Source: an uncultured Bacteroidales bacterium
GTDB lineage: Bacteria; Bacteroidota; Bacteroidia; Bacteroidales; FEN-979
Assembly: GCA_903824935.1 (NCBI GenBank)
Contig: CAIJYT010000028.1
Span: 1-38,944, forward strand
DNA: 38,944 nt
Direction of reading: 5' to 3'
The notes below the pieces were generated by a model. It made no database searches and was not told where the DNA came from. It worked only from the letters and a program-made list of their open reading frames with translations. The position numbers and the translations under genes were made by a program. The first letter of the stretch is position 1, and every line of letters starts with the position of its first letter. Of this stretch, positions 6,821-33,954 are shown piece by piece.

Positions 6821-7885
6821 ATGGAAAAAGACCGTACATATTTTGAAGGGCTCATTGCCAGGTATTTCAGCAAGGAAGCAACGCCTGCCGAGATCGGTGA
6901 GCTCTCCTCATGGGTCACTGAGAGCCCCGAGAACGAAGCTGTTTTCAGTGAGTCGCGATATGCATGGATGGCATTTGAAGAAGTGAGGATCACCGGGTTG
7001 GCCGATGTGGATGAAGCATGGGAGGCGTTTAAAGAGCGGGCAGGGATAAATGAAGAGACCAAGTCGGCAGTCGTCAGTCGGCAGAAAGTAGTCAGCAGTC
7101 GGCAGTCGGCAGTCGGCAGTCAGCAGTCAAATATACCAAGAGCAATTCCGATGTACAATATTCTGCTAAGGGTAGCAGCTGTCCTCATTATTCTAGCTTT
7201 TCCTGCATTTCACCTTTACAAATACCTTCAGCAGCCAGCAATAAAAGAATTTGCAGCGGGAACCGGCCGTGCCGAAACCCTTCTGCCCGATGGCTCCCAT
7301 GTGATGCTCAATTCCGGTGCTGTGATTAAATACCCTGAAAGATTCAAAGGAAAGAAAAGGGCTGTCAGCCTTGACGGGGAAGCTTATTTTGATGTTGCTC
7401 ATAATGCTTCAAAACCTTTTATCATAGCAACCGACGGGATCAGGGTAGAAGTGAAAGGAACCTCCTTTTATATAAACACTCGTTCATGGAGCGGGGATTT
7501 TGAACTGGTGCTTACATCGGGCAAGGTCGAACTTTATTTTGAAAATCAGCCAGGCCAGGCCAGGGTTCTCAACCCAGGCGAAAAAGCCATTGTACACGGT
7601 AACCAGATCATCATCAGTACGAATACCGACGCCAACTATATGGCCTGGAAAACCCACAAGATCTCCTTTAACAATGAGCCCCTTAATTCAGTGGCGGCTA
7701 CCTTAAGCAAGGTATACCAGGCTAATGTACGCCTCGGCAATACTTCACTTGCCGGTTGCAGGCTCACAGCGACCTTCGACAATCAATCCCTTGAATCTGT
7801 ACTAAACGTTCTTAAAGCAACGTTAGATGTAGATATCAGGAATTCCGGATCTTTGGTGGAAATTTCCGGCAAAGGATGCAGATAA
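6821..7885 (+). CDS. FecR-family anti-sigma factor
   Basis: Single TM at about aa 112-130; GRAETLLPDGSHVMLNSGAVIKYPERFKGKKRAVSLDGEAYFDVAHNASKPFIIATDGIRVEVKGTSFYI FecR signature; DUF4974-like C-terminus. Confidence 0.93.
   Translation: MEKDRTYFEGLIARYFSKEATPAEIGELSSWVTESPENEAVFSESRYAWMAFEEVRITGLADVDEAWEAFKERAGINEETKSAVVSRQKVVSSRQSAVGSQQSNIPRAIPMYNILLRVAAVLIILAFPAFHLYKYLQQPAIKEFAAGTGRAETLLPDGSHVMLNSGAVIKYPERFKGKKRAVSLDGEAYFDVAHNASKPFIIATDGIRVEVKGTSFYINTRSWSGDFELVLTSGKVELYFENQPGQARVLNPGEKAIVHGNQIIISTNTDANYMAWKTHKISFNNEPLNSVAATLSKVYQANVRLGNTSLAGCRLTATFDNQSLESVLNVLKATLDVDIRNSGSLVEISGKGCR
7063..7128 (+). repeat. (GTCGGCA/GTCAGCA)n short tandem repeat inside fecR
   Basis: gtcggcagtcgtcagtcggcagaaagtagtcagcagtcggcagtcggcagtcggcagtcagcagtc, translated as SAVVSRQKVVSSRQSAVGSQQS. 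Confidence 0.9.
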
Positions 7886-11420: not shown

Positions 11421-11424
11421 CGGA

Positions 11425-11615
11425 TCGCTCGCACATCTCACCGCCGCTGACGTTACTGCGTCGCTCACCAGTGCTTGAACAGTAATTAAACCAGATATGG
11501 TTCGCTCCTTGTACCTAAGGCGGCTTGTGAGATGTGCTTCGCTTCGGACACCTGATGCGGCTTGTGTGATACGAACCGCTCATTACAATGCGGCTTTTAT
11601 AGAATGCTTCGCTAA
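11425..11615 (+). repeat. Dispersed covarying hairpin element, copy A (one left arm, three right-end units)
   Basis: Left CGCTCGCACATCTCACCGCCGC (11426-11447); right GGCGGCTTGTGAGATGTGCTTCGC (11519-11542). Conserved boxes TGCGTCGCTCA and TTCGCTCCTTG; further right units to about 11612. Confidence 0.85.
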
Positions 11616-11621
11616 AATTAA

Positions 11622-11646
11622 TTTCGCTACTTCGCTATTTCGCTAC
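11622..11646 (+). repeat. TTCGCTACTTCGCTATTTCGCTAC short tandem repeat
   Basis: Direct reading. Same word family as 24320-24446. Confidence 0.85.
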
Positions 11647-11727
11647 TTTTTTTCAAAATGAATCAGGGTAGAACCCTCCACCTGTGTATAATAGAAAAAC
11701 AAAAGAATCAAACCTCAAAACCATAGC

Positions 11728-14566: not shown

Positions 14567-16354
14567 TTACGATTCACGGTTCACGGTTCGCGGTTCACGC
14601 CTCAGCCTGCTGTTTTTCCTGGAATACAGTATATAGATCGCCATCCCTATAAGGAGCCAGACAAGGAACCTCATCCAGTTGGTAAATCCCAGGTGAACCA
14701 TCAGGAAAAGGCTTGAAAGAAGGCCCAGCAGCGGGATCAGCGATAACTTCCTGATGATCCCCATCACTGTAAGGATCACGGCGGCAATGATGAAAATAAA
14801 CAAGGGCAGGTCATCCCTGTCAAAAGTAAAGTTGGTAAGCCTGCCAAGCTCCCTGAGTTCAGGCGGGTTCCAGAAGTAAAGCACCACCGCAACCCCGGCC
14901 CAGACCACGGGAAGCACGATGCGGGAGTTTATGTATGGGACGTGGAAGCCCTTTTGAGTAGTCTGCAGTCTGTAGTCTGCAGTCTGCAAATTGCCGACTG
15001 CCGACTGCTGACTTCTCTTGCCATAGGGGTTCAATATCAGCACACCTCCGCTCACCAGGACAAACGCAAACAGGGTACCTATGCTAGTCAGGTCTGTGAC
15101 TTCGGTGAAGTTCATGAACAGGGATGGGATGGCTACTAATAGCCCGGCAACAACAGTAGAAAAAGAGGGTGTTCTGAATTTGGGATGTATCCTCGAAAAG
15201 GCTTTCGGCAATAAACCGTCGCGGCTCATGCTCATCCAGATACGGGGTTGACCCACCTGGAAGACCAGGATCACACTGGCCATAGCGATGACGGCTGCCA
15301 GTGAAACAAAGCCTGCAAATTTAGCCATATGGTTTCTTTCAAACACATAGGCCAGGGGGTCTCCTACACCGAGTTCCGAAAAATTCACCATGCCAGTGAG
15401 AACCAGGCTGATCATGACATACAAAAAGGTTGTTATGATGAGAGAGTATATGATTGCCCTTGGCAGGTCGCGGCGTGTATTCCTGCATTCTTCAGCAGTA
15501 GTGGATATTGCATCAAAGCCGATATAAGCAAAGAACACCCCGGAAACTCCTTTGAGCACACCGGTTAGCCCATGAGGGGCAAAGGGTGTCCAATTGCCGG
15601 GTTTCACGTAAAATGACCCTACCCCAATGACCAGCAGCAATACCACGACTTTCAGGATCACCATGGAGTTACCAACCACTTTGGTTTCGTAAATCCCGAT
15701 ATAAACCAGCATGGAAATAAGGGCGACAATCGCAAAGGCAGGAATGTTGGCAATCATATGAACGCCTCCAAGTACAGGAGAATTAACCCAGGCCAGGTAT
15801 GATTTCTGTATAGCGGGGGCCAGTTGGGACAGGCTGCTGCCATGAGCAATGGCTGCGGCTCCGTCATAATAACCCCTCAGCGCGGTAACGTAATCTGTCG
15901 ATACATATTCGGGGATGTGAAGGCCCAACCCGCTCATCAGTCCACAAAAATAATCAGACCATGAAATCGCCACGGCTATGTTCCCGATGGCATATTCAAT
16001 GATAAGGTCCCAGCCGATGATCCACGCGAAAAGCTCTCCGAAACTGGCATAGGCATAGGTGTAAGCGCTGCCGCTAAGGGGGATGACCGAAGCAAATTCG
16101 GCATAACATAAGGCTGAAAAACCACAGGCTATGGCTGTAAAAATAAAGAGCAGGGCAACTGCAGGCCCGCCCGAGGCTGCAGCACTTCCTATGGTGGCGA
16201 AGATACCCGATCCGACAATGGCGGCAATCCCCAATGCGGTGAGGTCAAACACGGTAAGGCTTCGCCTGAGGCCTCCCGATTCCCGCTCGTACCTTGCGGC
16301 ATCATTGAGAATCAGGCCTATCGGCTTCTTTCTAATAAGATCGGAAAACGACAA
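14567..16354 (-). CDS. APC-family amino acid permease
   Basis: LTVFDLTALGIAAIVGSGIFATIGSAAASGGPAVALLFIFTAIACGFSALCYAEFAS and FAYIGFDAISTTAEECRNTRRDLPRAIIYSL. Confidence 0.93.
   Translation of the reverse strand: MSFSDLIRKKPIGLILNDAARYERESGGLRRSLTVFDLTALGIAAIVGSGIFATIGSAAASGGPAVALLFIFTAIACGFSALCYAEFASVIPLSGSAYTYAYASFGELFAWIIGWDLIIEYAIGNIAVAISWSDYFCGLMSGLGLHIPEYVSTDYVTALRGYYDGAAAIAHGSSLSQLAPAIQKSYLAWVNSPVLGGVHMIANIPAFAIVALISMLVYIGIYETKVVGNSMVILKVVVLLLVIGVGSFYVKPGNWTPFAPHGLTGVLKGVSGVFFAYIGFDAISTTAEECRNTRRDLPRAIIYSLIITTFLYVMISLVLTGMVNFSELGVGDPLAYVFERNHMAKFAGFVSLAAVIAMASVILVFQVGQPRIWMSMSRDGLLPKAFSRIHPKFRTPSFSTVVAGLLVAIPSLFMNFTEVTDLTSIGTLFAFVLVSGGVLILNPYGKRSQQSAVGNLQTADYRLQTTQKGFHVPYINSRIVLPVVWAGVAVVLYFWNPPELRELGRLTNFTFDRDDLPLFIFIIAAVILTVMGIIRKLSLIPLLGLLSSLFLMVHLGFTNWMRFLVWLLIGMAIYILYSRKNSRLRREPRTVNRES
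14571..14600 (+). repeat. GGTTCACG-type short tandem repeat covering the permease C-terminal codons
   Basis: gattcacggttcacggttcgcggttcacgc; translated on minus as ...REPRTVNRES. Confidence 0.85.
14957..15013 (+). repeat. AGTCTGCAGTCTGTAGTCTGCAGTCTGC...GCCGACTGCCGACTGC repeat inside permease gene
   Basis: Direct reading; translated on minus strand as SQQSAVGNLQTADYRLQTT. Confidence 0.88.
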
Positions 16355-19617: not shown

Positions 19618-19642
19618 CGATAATTTATCGTGTTGAACACTT

Positions 19643-19760
19643 AGCTCACATCTTTACAACGCTGCTAAGGTTGCTGCGTCACGCACGCATACTTATTCCC
19701 TTGGCATAAGCAGTTGAAATTCGCTCCTTGCACCTGATGCAGCTTTGTATAATGTTCGCT
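19643..19760 (+). repeat. Dispersed covarying hairpin element, copy B
   Basis: Left AGCTCACATCTTTACAACGCTGC; right GATGCAGCTTTGTATAATGTTCGCT; conserved GGTTGCTGCGTC and TTCGCTCCTTGCACCTGATGC boxes. Confidence 0.82.
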
Positions 19761-19761
19761 G

Positions 19762-20142
19762 TTAAATCAGCCCTAACTCCACTTTGGCGTCGTCGCTCAG
19801 GTTCGCAATATCCCAGGGAGGTTCGAAAGTAAGTTCGATTTTAACTTTGCCCACTCCTTCAACACGACTTACCTCGTCCTGCACCATGCCGGGCATATCC
19901 TCGGCAACCGGGCAGTTTGGAGTGGTAAGCGTCATCAGGATTTCCACATTACGATCAATGTCGATCTTAAGATTGTAAATCAGCCCAAGGTCATAAATAT
20001 TAATCGGGATCTCTGGGTCAAAAATCCTCCTGAGGGCATCTATTACAGAGTGTTCAAAAGGATCGTATGGTATGTTTTCGGGGGTTTCCATAAGTTCATT
20101 GCTTGAACCGGCAAAGTTAAGGATTCGAGTCGGAATTAACAT
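19762..20142 (-). CDS. sufT: SufT/MIP18-like (DUF59) Fe-S assembly protein; likely start METPEN at about 20091
   Basis: VIDALRRIFDPEIPINIYDLGLIYNL...MTLTTPNCPVAEDMPGMVQDEV...ELTFEPPWDI. Confidence 0.9.
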   Translation of the reverse strand: MLIPTRILNFAGSSNELMETPENIPYDPFEHSVIDALRRIFDPEIPINIYDLGLIYNLKIDIDRNVEILMTLTTPNCPVAEDMPGMVQDEVSRVEGVGKVKIELTFEPPWDIANLSDDAKVELGLI

Positions 20143-20170: not shown

Positions 20171-20590
20171 TCATCCCTTCATTTTAAACACCATCGCATA
20201 AAGCTTCATTTGCTTTACCATAGATGCCAGGCCATTAGAACGGGTAGGCGAGAGGTGTTCTTTTAAGCCTATACTGTTTATGAAATTCAGGTCTGCGGAC
20301 TGTATCGCGTCGGGGGTCTGGCCCGAAAGGACTTTTACAAGCATGCTCACAATGCCCTTGGTGATGATGGCGTCGCTGTCGGCGGTGAAAAACACCTTGC
20401 CGTCACGGTACTCGGCATGAAGCCAGACCTTGCTTTGACAGCCTGAAATTATATACTGGTCAGTCTTGAATTTTGGATCTATAGGGGGCAGTGATTTGCC
20501 CATGTCGAGGATGATGTCATATTTGTCGAGCCAGTCGTCAAAAGAGGCGAATTCGTCGATAATCTGGTTTTCGGTTTCCTGGATGGTCAT
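20171..20590 (-). CDS. sufE: SufE-family cysteine desulfuration protein
   Basis: FDDWLDKYDIILDMGKSLPPIDPKFKTDQYIISGCQSKVWLHA; GLKEHLSPTRSNGLASM. Confidence 0.95.
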   Translation of the reverse strand: MTIQETENQIIDEFASFDDWLDKYDIILDMGKSLPPIDPKFKTDQYIISGCQSKVWLHAEYRDGKVFFTADSDAIITKGIVSMLVKVLSGQTPDAIQSADLNFINSIGLKEHLSPTRSNGLASMVKQMKLYAMVFKMKG

Positions 20591-20603: not shown

Positions 20604-20770
20604 TTCGCTCGCAATAATGCAATGCCGCATTGGCTTGCAGTTTTACATCGCCGCTGTCGCTCGCAACAATGCACCGCCGCTACGGTGTCTGCGTCGCATA
20701 TGCATTTGTTGTTTCTCCAACCCTCTGGAGGCTCCTTGCACCTGATGCGGCTTGTGCATTTTGCTTCGCT
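20604..20770 (+). repeat. Dispersed covarying hairpin element, copy C (extra left unit)
   Basis: Left CGCTCGCAACAATGCACCGCCGC (20658-20680); right GATGCGGCTTGTGCATTTTGCTTCGCT (20744-20770); extra left unit TTCGCTCGCAATAATGCAATGCCGC upstream. Confidence 0.85.
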
Positions 20771-20777
20771 TGTTTTA

Positions 20778-22094: not shown

Positions 22095-23525
22095 TCATAT
22101 TTTCGACATGTCTATCATGAATTCCATCGGCCGCTCGGGGGTGTTGCAATGCAGTACACAGGCTTCACAGATTTGCAATTCTCCCTGCAGGCGTTTCTTC
22201 ACCATATCTTCTATTCGGTACCTCAGCGGCTCAATGTCAATTTTACTGATCACCTCATCCGCATACGCATACATTAAAAGCATTCGGGCACTGTCTTCAC
22301 CAATCCCTCTCTGCCTCAGGTAATACATCGCATCCTGGTCGAGCTGCCCTGTTGTTGAACCATGGGAACATTTCACGTCATCATTGTAGATCTCGAGAAA
22401 AGGCTTTGAATTCACTTTTGCAGTTTCCGTCAGCAGGATATTCCTGTTGCTCTGGTATGCATTGGTGCGCTGCGCATCCCTGCGAACCAGCACATGTCCG
22501 TTGAAAACCCCGCTTGAATGCTCATCAAGTATCCCTTTAAAAAGCTCGCTGCTTGTACAGTCGGGGGACGCATGGTCAATGAAAACCTGGTTATCGATAT
22601 GCTGCTTGCGGTCCATCAGGTAGATCCCGTAAACATTGGCGCCGCCGTGAGGGCCGTTAAATCTCAGCCTGAGATTGTTCCTTAGCAATCCTCCGTTGAG
22701 CGAAATATAATGGGACTCAAGTTTGGCGGCAGTTTCAAGCTCGAAATATGAAGAACTGATAAGAGTGGAGCTGTTGTTAAGATTCTGAAGCTTGTAATGA
22801 TCCATAAAGGCAGCTTCTCCCATATGTATCTCGGTTACAACATTTGAGAACGAAGCCTGCTGGTTATATGAATCATCGCAATGCACCAGCGAAAGCCTGC
22901 TGTTCTTCCCCAAAACAATAAGGTTCCTCGATTGCAGGAAAAGGTTCTCATTACTGTGGATGACATTGATGATCTGCACCGGCTTCGGGCTTTTTACATC
23001 ATCCGGCACATAAATGAAAACACCGTCCATGATAAAAGCCGTATTCAGCGAAGTAAATGCATCCCCGTTTGAACCGGAATATTTTCCAAGGTGGGCTTCC
23101 ACCAGTTCCGGATATTGCTTCAGGGCTTCAGCCAGGCTTCCCATGATTATGCCGTTCCCAAGCTTCATCAAAGGCACATCCTTGGATACATACCAGCTGT
23201 TAAGCTGCCCCATGATAGCCGTATCGAGATGAGGAATATTGCAAAGGAAAACTTTCTGAACATCCACACCCGTCTCGGGTTGCACGACCACCTTGTATTC
23301 AGTTGAAAAACTTTCCTTCAGGCTGGTATTCTTCCAGGCTTCAAGCTTAGTGGTAGGAAATCCTGATTCTTCAAAACTGCGGATGGCTTTATCCCTTAAA
23401 ACCGTCAGCGCCGGGTAATCATTGACAGATAAAGCCTCACGGCATTCCCTGTAAAGGGCTGCCATCAGTTCCTTTGTAATATTTCTCCTTACTGAATCCT
23501 GCATCTTGTATCCTGCATCTTGCAT
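22095..23525 (-). CDS. sufD: SufD Fe-S cluster assembly protein
   Basis: SELFKGILDEHSSGVFNGHVLVRRDAQRTNAYQSNRNILLTETAKVNSKPFLEIYNDDVKCSHGSTTGQLDQDAMYYLRQRGI. The exact N-terminus is uncertain. Confidence 0.95.
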   Translation of the reverse strand: MQDAGYKMQDSVRRNITKELMAALYRECREALSVNDYPALTVLRDKAIRSFEESGFPTTKLEAWKNTSLKESFSTEYKVVVQPETGVDVQKVFLCNIPHLDTAIMGQLNSWYVSKDVPLMKLGNGIIMGSLAEALKQYPELVEAHLGKYSGSNGDAFTSLNTAFIMDGVFIYVPDDVKSPKPVQIINVIHSNENLFLQSRNLIVLGKNSRLSLVHCDDSYNQQASFSNVVTEIHMGEAAFMDHYKLQNLNNSSTLISSSYFELETAAKLESHYISLNGGLLRNNLRLRFNGPHGGANVYGIYLMDRKQHIDNQVFIDHASPDCTSSELFKGILDEHSSGVFNGHVLVRRDAQRTNAYQSNRNILLTETAKVNSKPFLEIYNDDVKCSHGSTTGQLDQDAMYYLRQRGIGEDSARMLLMYAYADEVISKIDIEPLRYRIEDMVKKRLQGELQICEACVLHCNTPERPMEFMIDMSKI

Positions 23526-23530
23526 CCTGA
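23496..23530 (+). repeat. AATCCTGCATCTTGTATCCTGCATCTTGCATCCTGA repeat over the annotated sufD start
   Basis: Direct reading; gives N-terminal MQDAGYKMQDS. Confidence 0.88.
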
Positions 23531-23531
23531 C

Positions 23532-24287
23532 TTACCCCTCCTGCTCTTTTCTGATCCAGTCATACCCTTTTTCCTCCAGTTCCAGGGCAAGTTCCCTGGT
23601 CCCGGATTTTACAATCCTGCCTTCAAACAGCACATGAACGAAATCGGGAACAATATAATCGAGAAGCCTCTGGTAATGGGTGATGATTACGAAAGCGTTT
23701 TCCCTGGTGCGTAATTTGTTCACACCATTTGCAACTACCCTAAGGGCGTCAATATCAAGGCCCGAATCAGTTTCGTCGAGTATGGCCAGTTCAGGTTCTA
23801 GCATGGCCATCTGGAAAATCTCGTTCTTCTTTTTCTCTCCCCCCGAAAATCCTTCATTCACCGAGCGGTTGGCAAGGTTGGAAGTAAGTTCGACCAGCTT
23901 TTTCTTTTCTTCCATCAGTTTCAGGAAAGCACTGCCCGAAAGGGGATCCAGGCCTTTATACTTCCTCACCTCGTTTACTGCGGTGCGCATAAAATTGGTG
24001 ATGCTCACCCCCGGTATTTCAACAGGGTACTGGAAACCCAGGAAAATGCCTTCCCTTGCCCGTTCTTCAACTGCAAGCTTCAGCAGGTTCTTGTCCCTGT
24101 AAATGATCTCCCCGGCAGTTGCATCAAAGACTTCCCTGCCTGCGATCACCGAGGCGAGGGTGCTTTTTCCCGTACCGTTTGGGCCCATGATAGCATGAAC
24201 CTCCCCATGATCCACATCAAGATCTATTCCTTTTAATATTTCCTTCCCGTTGATGGACGCATGAAGGTTTTTAATTGATAAGAGCAT
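23532..24287 (-). CDS. sufC: SufC Fe-S assembly ATPase
   Basis: IMGPNGTGKSTLASVIAG; GFSGGEKKKNEIFQMAMLEPELAILDETDSGLDIDAL. Confidence 0.97.
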   Translation of the reverse strand: MLLSIKNLHASINGKEILKGIDLDVDHGEVHAIMGPNGTGKSTLASVIAGREVFDATAGEIIYRDKNLLKLAVEERAREGIFLGFQYPVEIPGVSITNFMRTAVNEVRKYKGLDPLSGSAFLKLMEEKKKLVELTSNLANRSVNEGFSGGEKKKNEIFQMAMLEPELAILDETDSGLDIDALRVVANGVNKLRTRENAFVIITHYQRLLDYIVPDFVHVLFEGRIVKSGTRELALELEEKGYDWIRKEQEG

Positions 24288-24319
24288 ATTCCTGTTATTC
24301 GTATTATATTATTTATTAA

Positions 24320-24446
24320 GTAGCGAAGTGGCGAAATCGCGAAGTAGCGAAATAAAAACGATATTTTTATGTTGATTCATTTCCCCAATATTTATAATAT
24401 AACTCTTCAATTTTCGCTATCTCGCTATTTCGCTACTTCGCTACTA
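24320..24446. repeat. Imperfect inverted repeat between sufB and sufC
   Basis: Left GTAGCGAAGTGGCGAAATCGCGAAGTAGCGAAAT; right reverse complement AGTAGCGAAGTAGCGAAATAGCGAGATAGCGAAAAT; AT-rich loop of about 60 nt. Confidence 0.88.
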
Positions 24447-27454: not shown

Positions 27455-27487
27455 GAAGCGAAGCATTTTAATCAGACTGCTATGTGA

Positions 27488-27694
27488 AAAGCGAAGCACA
27501 TCACACAAGCTGCTTTCGCTCGCATATTTGCATCGCGGCTTTCTCTCGCATATTTGCATCGCGGCTACGGTTGCTGCGTCGCTCAGTTATCAATTTACCG
27601 AAGGCCAGACCGGATGTATTTCGCTCCTTGCACCTGATGCCGCTGATGCAAAATGCTTCGCTCCATAAAATACGGCTTGTGTGAAGTGCTTCAC
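27488..27694 (+). repeat. Dispersed covarying hairpin element, copy D (nested inner and outer arm pairs, 26-bp tandem left unit)
   Basis: Outer GCGAAGCACATCACACAAGCTGC (27491-27513) / ACGGCTTGTGTGAAGTGCTTCAC (27672-27694). Inner CTCGCATATTTGCATCGCGGC (27545-27565) / GATGCCGCTGATGCAAAATGCTTCGCT (27636-27662). Confidence 0.87.
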
Positions 27695-27700
27695 TTTTCC

Positions 27701-33725: not shown

Positions 33726-33790
33726 CAATTTATATTTAAATCAAGGCGCCGCAGGGGAGAAATTATTGTTAAACCATTCACGAATATTAT

Positions 33791-33939
33791 AAGCGAAGCA
33801 TTTTACATAAGCCGCATCAGTTATCTGGAGCGAAGCACATCGCATTAGCCGCCTCAGGTGCGAGGAGCTTGTTTAATGCCAGAAGAGCCTTTCATCATAT
33901 TGCTCCGCTGCCACCGTAGCGGCATTGTGATGTGCGAGC
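33791..33939 (-). repeat. Dispersed covarying hairpin element, copy E (inverted orientation, extra end unit)
   Basis: AGCGAAGCACATCGCATTAGCCGCC (33829-33853) / GCGGCATTGTGATGTGCGAGC (33919-33939), plus end unit AAGCGAAGCATTTTACATAAGCCGCATCAG (33791-33820). Confidence 0.85.
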
Positions 33940-33954
33940 CTAAGACTCTGGAAA

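Follow-up and report, generated by a model that had tools for sequence, protein, structure and literature searches.

A hairpin in the sufS-sufE spacer of an uncultured Bacteroidales bacterium, probably an old passenger from a genus-specific family of nested palindromic repeats

Does the imperfect hairpin that lies inside the suf operon of this uncultured Bacteroidales bacterium serve the operon, or is it one member of a dispersed repeat that happens to reside there? The window (the whole 38,944-nt stretch analyzed here, contig C28 of a 3.63-Mb genome in 289 contigs) carries the genes in the order sufB, sufC, sufD, sufS, sufE-like, and SufT-like, all on the minus strand, and its closest named relatives, as judged by SufS, are MAGs of uncultured Bacteroidales, of which several come from lake water according to their isolate names. 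The genes next to the hairpin are as follows.

19762 to 20142, minus strand: SUF-associated FeS_assembly_P (SufT-like) gene
20171 to 20590, minus strand: sufE-like sulfur acceptor gene (SufE/CsdE models at E of 1e-27, below the equivalog cutoff), with its start codon 15 nt from the outermost hairpin unit, L1
20778 to 22004, minus strand: sufS, cysteine desulfurase (TIGR01979 above the cutoff), with its stop codon 7 nt from the element

The element, designated copy C, spans 20606 to 20770 and takes up most of the 187-nt gap between sufS and sufE, in agreement with the first-pass annotation, which had described the spacer as almost filled. The following parts were distinguished.

20606 to 20628, plus strand: L1, outermost left-type unit, CGCTCGCAATAATGCAATGCCGC, the partner of the right unit when the element is folded as RNA
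20632 to 20654, plus strand: L2, middle left-type unit, degenerate, GGCTTGCAGTTTTACATCGCCGC, a member of direct-repeat family D5
20658 to 20681, plus strand: L3, innermost left unit, CGCTCGCAACAATGCACCGCCGCT (previously quoted as CGCTCGCAACAATGCACCGCCGC, 20658 to 20680), within a covariance-model match at 20656 to 20771
20682 to 20738, plus strand: apical part, an ACGGTG stem foot and a long loop (∼50 nt) ending in GGCTCCTTG
20739 to 20770, plus strand: the single right unit, CACCTGATGCGGCTTGTGCATTTTGCTTCGCT, within the covariance-model match

Two left units and one right unit had been counted before; the quoted units are present, but the degenerate unit at 20632 to 20654 had been overlooked, and copy C is an incompletely nested structure with three left units against one right unit, two of the left units being unmatched. 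The proposed pairing of the second left arm with the right arm was recovered as that of L3 with the right unit (GCAACAATGCAC and GTGCATTTTGC are complementary), but L1 is able to compete for the same right arm and is the partner chosen in the minimum-energy RNA fold. By itself, copy C folds only modestly (z = -1.1 as DNA and -2.6 as RNA), and the case for structure rests on covariation among copies rather than on its folding energy.

Copy C is not a chance match to the family, since its covariance-model score was 70.5 bits (E = 4.7e-15 in a search over 1.03 Mb), and 45 to 56 family matches (about 50 copies) were obtained genome-wide, with 56 places found by DNA search. Other copies in the window are as follows.

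11424 to 11617, plus strand: one left and three right units
19641 to 19761, plus strand: copy beside the sufT-like gene, with no counterpart detected at the orthologous sites of two related genomes (G002 and G004)
27514 to 27695, plus strand: two units of each type, left and right, preceded immediately by reverse-type units (27457 to 27513)
33789 to 33941, minus strand: one left and two right units

In addition, runs of 8-nt repeats (TTCGCTAC/GTAGCGAA) at 11622 to 11650 and 24311 to 24446 of the window adjoin many hairpin copies and have the hairpin end sequence AGCGAA in common, and these runs may be targets or breakdown products of the element. With a covariance model derived from 18 short-loop copies, all eight genomes of the genus were positive, with 5 to 50 matches each, and 2 of the 35 other genomes of the family gave one match each. 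These two matches outside the genus (G042 and G046, both of genus g3; E of 2.3e-9 and 6.2e-8) possibly represent a distant family branch or a transfer. A sample of 294 other genomes of the order gave no match under strict filters with few candidates scored per genome, and no description of this hairpin family was found in the open-licence literature on palindromic repeats of Bacteroidetes. A phage or plasmid origin was also considered and set aside, as blastn gave no match in phage and plasmid collections.

The basic unit is an imperfect hairpin of ∼75 nt (short loop) or ∼115 nt (long loop), composed of a left part, CGCTCGCA-variable-CGCNGCTACGGTG, and a right part, CACCTGATGCNGCTT-variable-TGCTTCGCT. 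Its feet and its asymmetric internal loops are fixed, and most apical loops measure 10 to 19 nt or 50 to 69 nt. The variable arm of ∼9 bp is free in sequence, and both of its sides stay complementary. Across 121 copies, 95.1% of stem cells were paired, with 292 two-sided changes versus 80.7 in shuffles, while sliding the partner by 1 to 3 columns as a control lowered pairing to 25 to 51%. Fitting one alignment (A3) to the model favors structure; two others aligned without structure (A1 and A2) agreed. The stem cells comprised 2,174 Watson-Crick, 21 G-T, 52 A-C, and 42 other pairs; with so few G-T and A-C cells, the pair changes do not pass through wobble pairs. The internal loops were nearly invariant, with the 1x2 loop (C against TT) in 119, the 3x4 loop (mostly TAC against TGAT) in all 121, and the 2x3 loop in 105 of the copies, and the left variable arm was one base longer (10 versus 9 nt) in 104 of them.

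Many copies carry additional units beyond the inner hairpin. In the 41 copies that have such units both left and right, nested pairing (inner with inner and outer with outer) outperformed crossed pairing in 33, was worse in none, and tied in 8 (p = 2.7e-7), with examples at L005, L016, L244, L065, L067, and L228, and in one genome (G002) a whole short-loop unit was lodged in the loop of another unit. At three loci, L238:4592-4703 (L011), L250:4140-4253 (L018), and L243:4302-4415 (L019), the outer arms form near-perfect palindromes, two of which reach into the flanks; such arms are as expected if template switching removes asymmetry.

Regarding the operon, the hairpin could be read as a regulatory RNA that attenuates or protects the suf transcript and sets sufE-sufT apart from sufBCDS, an uncoupling that the first-pass annotation had proposed. 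Four of seven species (G000, G002, G004, and G006) carry the element in the sufS-sufE spacer, all in one orientation, the z value of copy C as RNA is given above, and MITEs are able to alter mRNA processing and stability (review, PMC10969869). However, the comparison of the same spacer showed that the other three species (G003, G005, and G007) lack the element there, as do more distant genera; no T-tract follows the stem on either side, and the same repeat occurs in unrelated spacers (convergent and divergent ones included) and within coding genes. Moreover, the stems bear no wobble signature and no Rfam family was assigned, the covariance models of Rfam 15 giving no match in the window at gathering score. 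We therefore regard a regulatory role in the suf operon as quite unlikely; nothing beyond position favors an effect on sufE-sufT, and nothing suggests that the element was built to regulate the operon.

Two further RNA-level candidates were tried and rejected. For an intrinsic terminator, TTTTT was located within 12 nt of the stem in 1.7% of cases on either side against a background of 3.3%, and the terminator scan found none in copy C. For RNA-level selection through wobble pairs, the 21 G-T versus 52 A-C cells represent no wobble excess on this strand; since the A-C cells are concentrated largely at two columns near the bulge, no claim on the strand is made. Covariation without G-U pairs is, on its own, no evidence of functional RNA.

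On the protein tree of the genus, ((G000,G007),((G004,G005),(G001,G006)),(G002,G003)), in which two inner nodes are weakly supported, the distribution in this spacer is most simply explained by an element ancestral in the genus and three losses, the alternative being repeated gain. The variable arms of the four suf-spacer copies differ from one another, yet they pair nearly throughout. Thus, copy C is best read as an old, dispensable resident whose effect on the operon, if any, would be minor; as L1 ends ∼15 nt ahead of the sufE start, it may slightly influence the processing of the mRNA or the translation of sufE.

The genomic context of the family was broad. Of the 121 copies, taken from loci for which the context numbers cover ∼1 Mb picked around copies, 61 occurred in spacers of tandem, 28 of convergent, and 15 of divergent genes; a further 5 lay at contig ends, and 12 fell inside called genes. 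The genes were called with a simple codon-usage ORF caller written for this analysis rather than with a published gene finder. Three or four of the 12 in-gene cases are probably start-codon artifacts. In tandem spacers throughout the genus, the left-to-right direction of the element was in sense with the genes in 43 copies and opposed in 18 (p = 0.002), copy C being among the opposed (antisense) minority. Translated in-frame copies were located in linkers of Mfd, MurF-Alr fusions (at three positions), Lnt, MiaA, and an amino acid permease, and all true in-gene copies are antisense to their gene. Several of these (L203, L216, L217, and L228) form one subfamily in the same frame (AKQFAQAALGVAKQTPDAVQDCER), all antisense.

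In the linkers of Mfd (L251 to L258) and MurF-Alr (L262 to L268), each species was observed to have a different in-frame repeat family, namely, the hairpin, (GTCGGCA)n, (CATCCTG)n, (GCGAAAA)n, or (GGAGCAG)n. Since similar short-period repeats also occupy spacers of the window (7061 to 7129, 14966 to 15016, and 23481 to 23543), linkers and spacers alike appear to be general hot spots where repeats turn over.

Comparison of orthologous sites revealed how the element changes in place. Among all orthologous spacers that allowed matching, 42 pairs had the element on both sides, with agreeing orientation in 29 and inversion in 13, and in 51 site/genome combinations no copy was detected, some of which may hold degenerate copies. 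Two-sided Watson-Crick changes numbered 58 in 24 orthologous pairs; of the one-sided events, 7 were G-U changes and 32 were breaks. Between G004 and G005, inversion was directly visible in two cases, where the arm sequence matched, and in one of which a whole small unit replaced the loop, and two sites with remnants of a deleted element. Instead of flips, some of the inverted pairs may reflect separate insertion events. The mix of orientations among copies had earlier been taken to argue for a DNA-level or orientation-independent function of the hairpin, and the 13 of 42 flipped pairs, together with stem changes that run nearly all from Watson-Crick to Watson-Crick without G-U excess, support a DNA-level, orientation-independent entity.

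Whether the family moves at all is a separate matter. The copies might be old and immobile, their likeness being kept by template switching and gene conversion, as many sites are common across the genus (the 42 pairs above) and other simple-repeat families sit at the same sites in other species. Against this, dispersed copies within one genome are up to 90 to 94% alike at unrelated loci, with the likeness stopping at the element ends, which points to spread to new sites, and presence is patchy (the 51 combinations above). Hence, a family without mobility appears improbable to us. The search for exact empty sites with clean ends yielded, as best candidates, deletion remnants or sites filled by other repeats, and neither a mobilizing enzyme for the element nor a flanking transposase was found.

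Taken together, we favor, as the probable explanation, a genus-specific, non-autonomous palindromic repeat that acts as DNA and of which copy C is one old passenger; the repeat would be REP- or RPE-like (Rickettsia palindromic element), probably with arms matched by template switching. According to this proposal, single-stranded DNA exposed at replication would fold into the hairpin, and template switching and hairpin-mediated rearrangement would copy changes from arm to arm, flip the element, or remove parts of it. Extra units would join outside, or whole units would enter the apical loop, giving nested hairpins, while some process would seed new sites and selection would retain copies in spacers and permissive linkers. 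Template switching yields multibase compensatory changes and loop inversions (PMC8794818), and the simultaneous arm changes and inversions seen here fit these reported products. Template switching alone should erase the fixed asymmetric loops, and therefore an added constraint or a master-copy effect is needed: the lopsided loops may be kept either by a structure-reading factor or by repeated seeding from master copies. The sense bias in tandem spacers (43 versus 18) counts against the proposal, as a pure DNA passenger does not account for it.

A more specific version, which we consider doubtful, is a mobile hairpin read by its shape, in which a putative recombinase would recognize the asymmetric loops of the folded strand, flip the element, and insert new copies preferentially into the apical loops of existing ones, so that Russian-doll palindromes would grow while their arms drift freely.

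An alternative is a REP/RAYT-type system, in which a tyrosine (HuH) transposase, for instance the product of the single Y1_Tnp gene of the genus, would move the hairpins. The mismatched hairpins and the restriction of a dispersed family to one genus are suggestive of such a system, in-frame REP insertions are known (PMC6006769; PMC3733652), and one conserved Y1_Tnp gene was present in each of the eight genomes. Nevertheless, GTAG, GTGG, or GGAG was found at the hairpin foot in 0 of 118 copies on either side, and in none of the eight genomes was the Y1 gene flanked by the element, with no full element within the 1.4 to 4 kb examined per side. The Y1 motifs (DHIH and Y---Q--H) resemble those of subclass 1.2, which a survey lists without REPs (PMC6006769), and relatives without the element also have Y1_Tnp genes, including homologues that are 46 to 58% identical. 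We thus judge this system unlikely here, and membership in the REP/RAYT class was rejected with the foot tag and the REPtron both absent. In the genus genomes, the Y1_Tnp gene (L031:1489-1923 and L282 to L289) is single, 79 to 87% identical, and located between cyoE-like and AI-2E-type permease genes; its behavior is that of a household gene, not of an insertion sequence.

The family constitutes a natural record of the evolution of bacterial chromosomal palindromes across eight species, readable at orthologous sites, that covers wobble-free paired arm changes, flips, nested growth, and decay. Since its arms homogenize while the fixed asymmetric loops do not, the family would allow the effects of template switching to be told apart from those of selection for folded DNA as a substrate. 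In addition, it adds a case from Bacteroidales of palindromes translated in the linkers of housekeeping enzymes.

Among known repeat classes, BOX and ERIC elements are modular or long imperfect palindromes between genes, as here, but neither is known to show nesting or free arm covariation. Integron attC sites are DNA hairpins recognized by structure, in which a variable stem is kept paired and fixed asymmetric bases stay unpaired. The present family has the same combination of a paired variable stem and conserved unpaired asymmetric bases, but neither cassettes nor conserved attC boxes were seen. The traits of a MITE are also present, as the element is short, multicopy, inverted-repeat, and without a transposase gene of its own. 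A MITE with target duplication was nonetheless not detected, no offset exceeding permuted pairs for lengths of 3 to 8 nt. BrickBuilt, a MITE of Porphyromonas gingivalis, is similarly an intergenic element of Bacteroidales with tandem 23-nt inner units, but its terminal inverted repeats are IS-like and it shows target duplications in some cases (PMC4596501), whereas our family has no target duplication and its repeated units pair with one another. REP, BIME, and REPIN sequences resemble the family as intergenic mismatched hairpins in many copies, taxon restricted, with occasional in-frame linker insertions (PMC6006769; PMC3733652), while the family lacks both a GTAG/GGAG foot and a REPtron, its stems are longer and nested, and the sequence of its arms is not conserved. 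Rickettsia palindromic elements are dispersed palindromes of ∼150 bp that also occur in frame within unrelated protein-coding genes (review, PMC10969869), as this dispersed palindrome does in Mfd, MurF-Alr, Lnt, MiaA, and the permease. Unlike them, it has no end tag (CGTC in 1, TGTC in 7, and CCTC in 0 of 118 copies), is mostly intergenic, has modular nested arms with a covarying variable part, and is inverted at about one-third of shared sites. The family thus resembles REPs and RPEs but, lacking a GTAG, GGAG, or CGTC tag and a REPtron, stands outside both, and, while in-frame linker copies are already known for these two classes, its nested, covarying, and flippable arms are new here.
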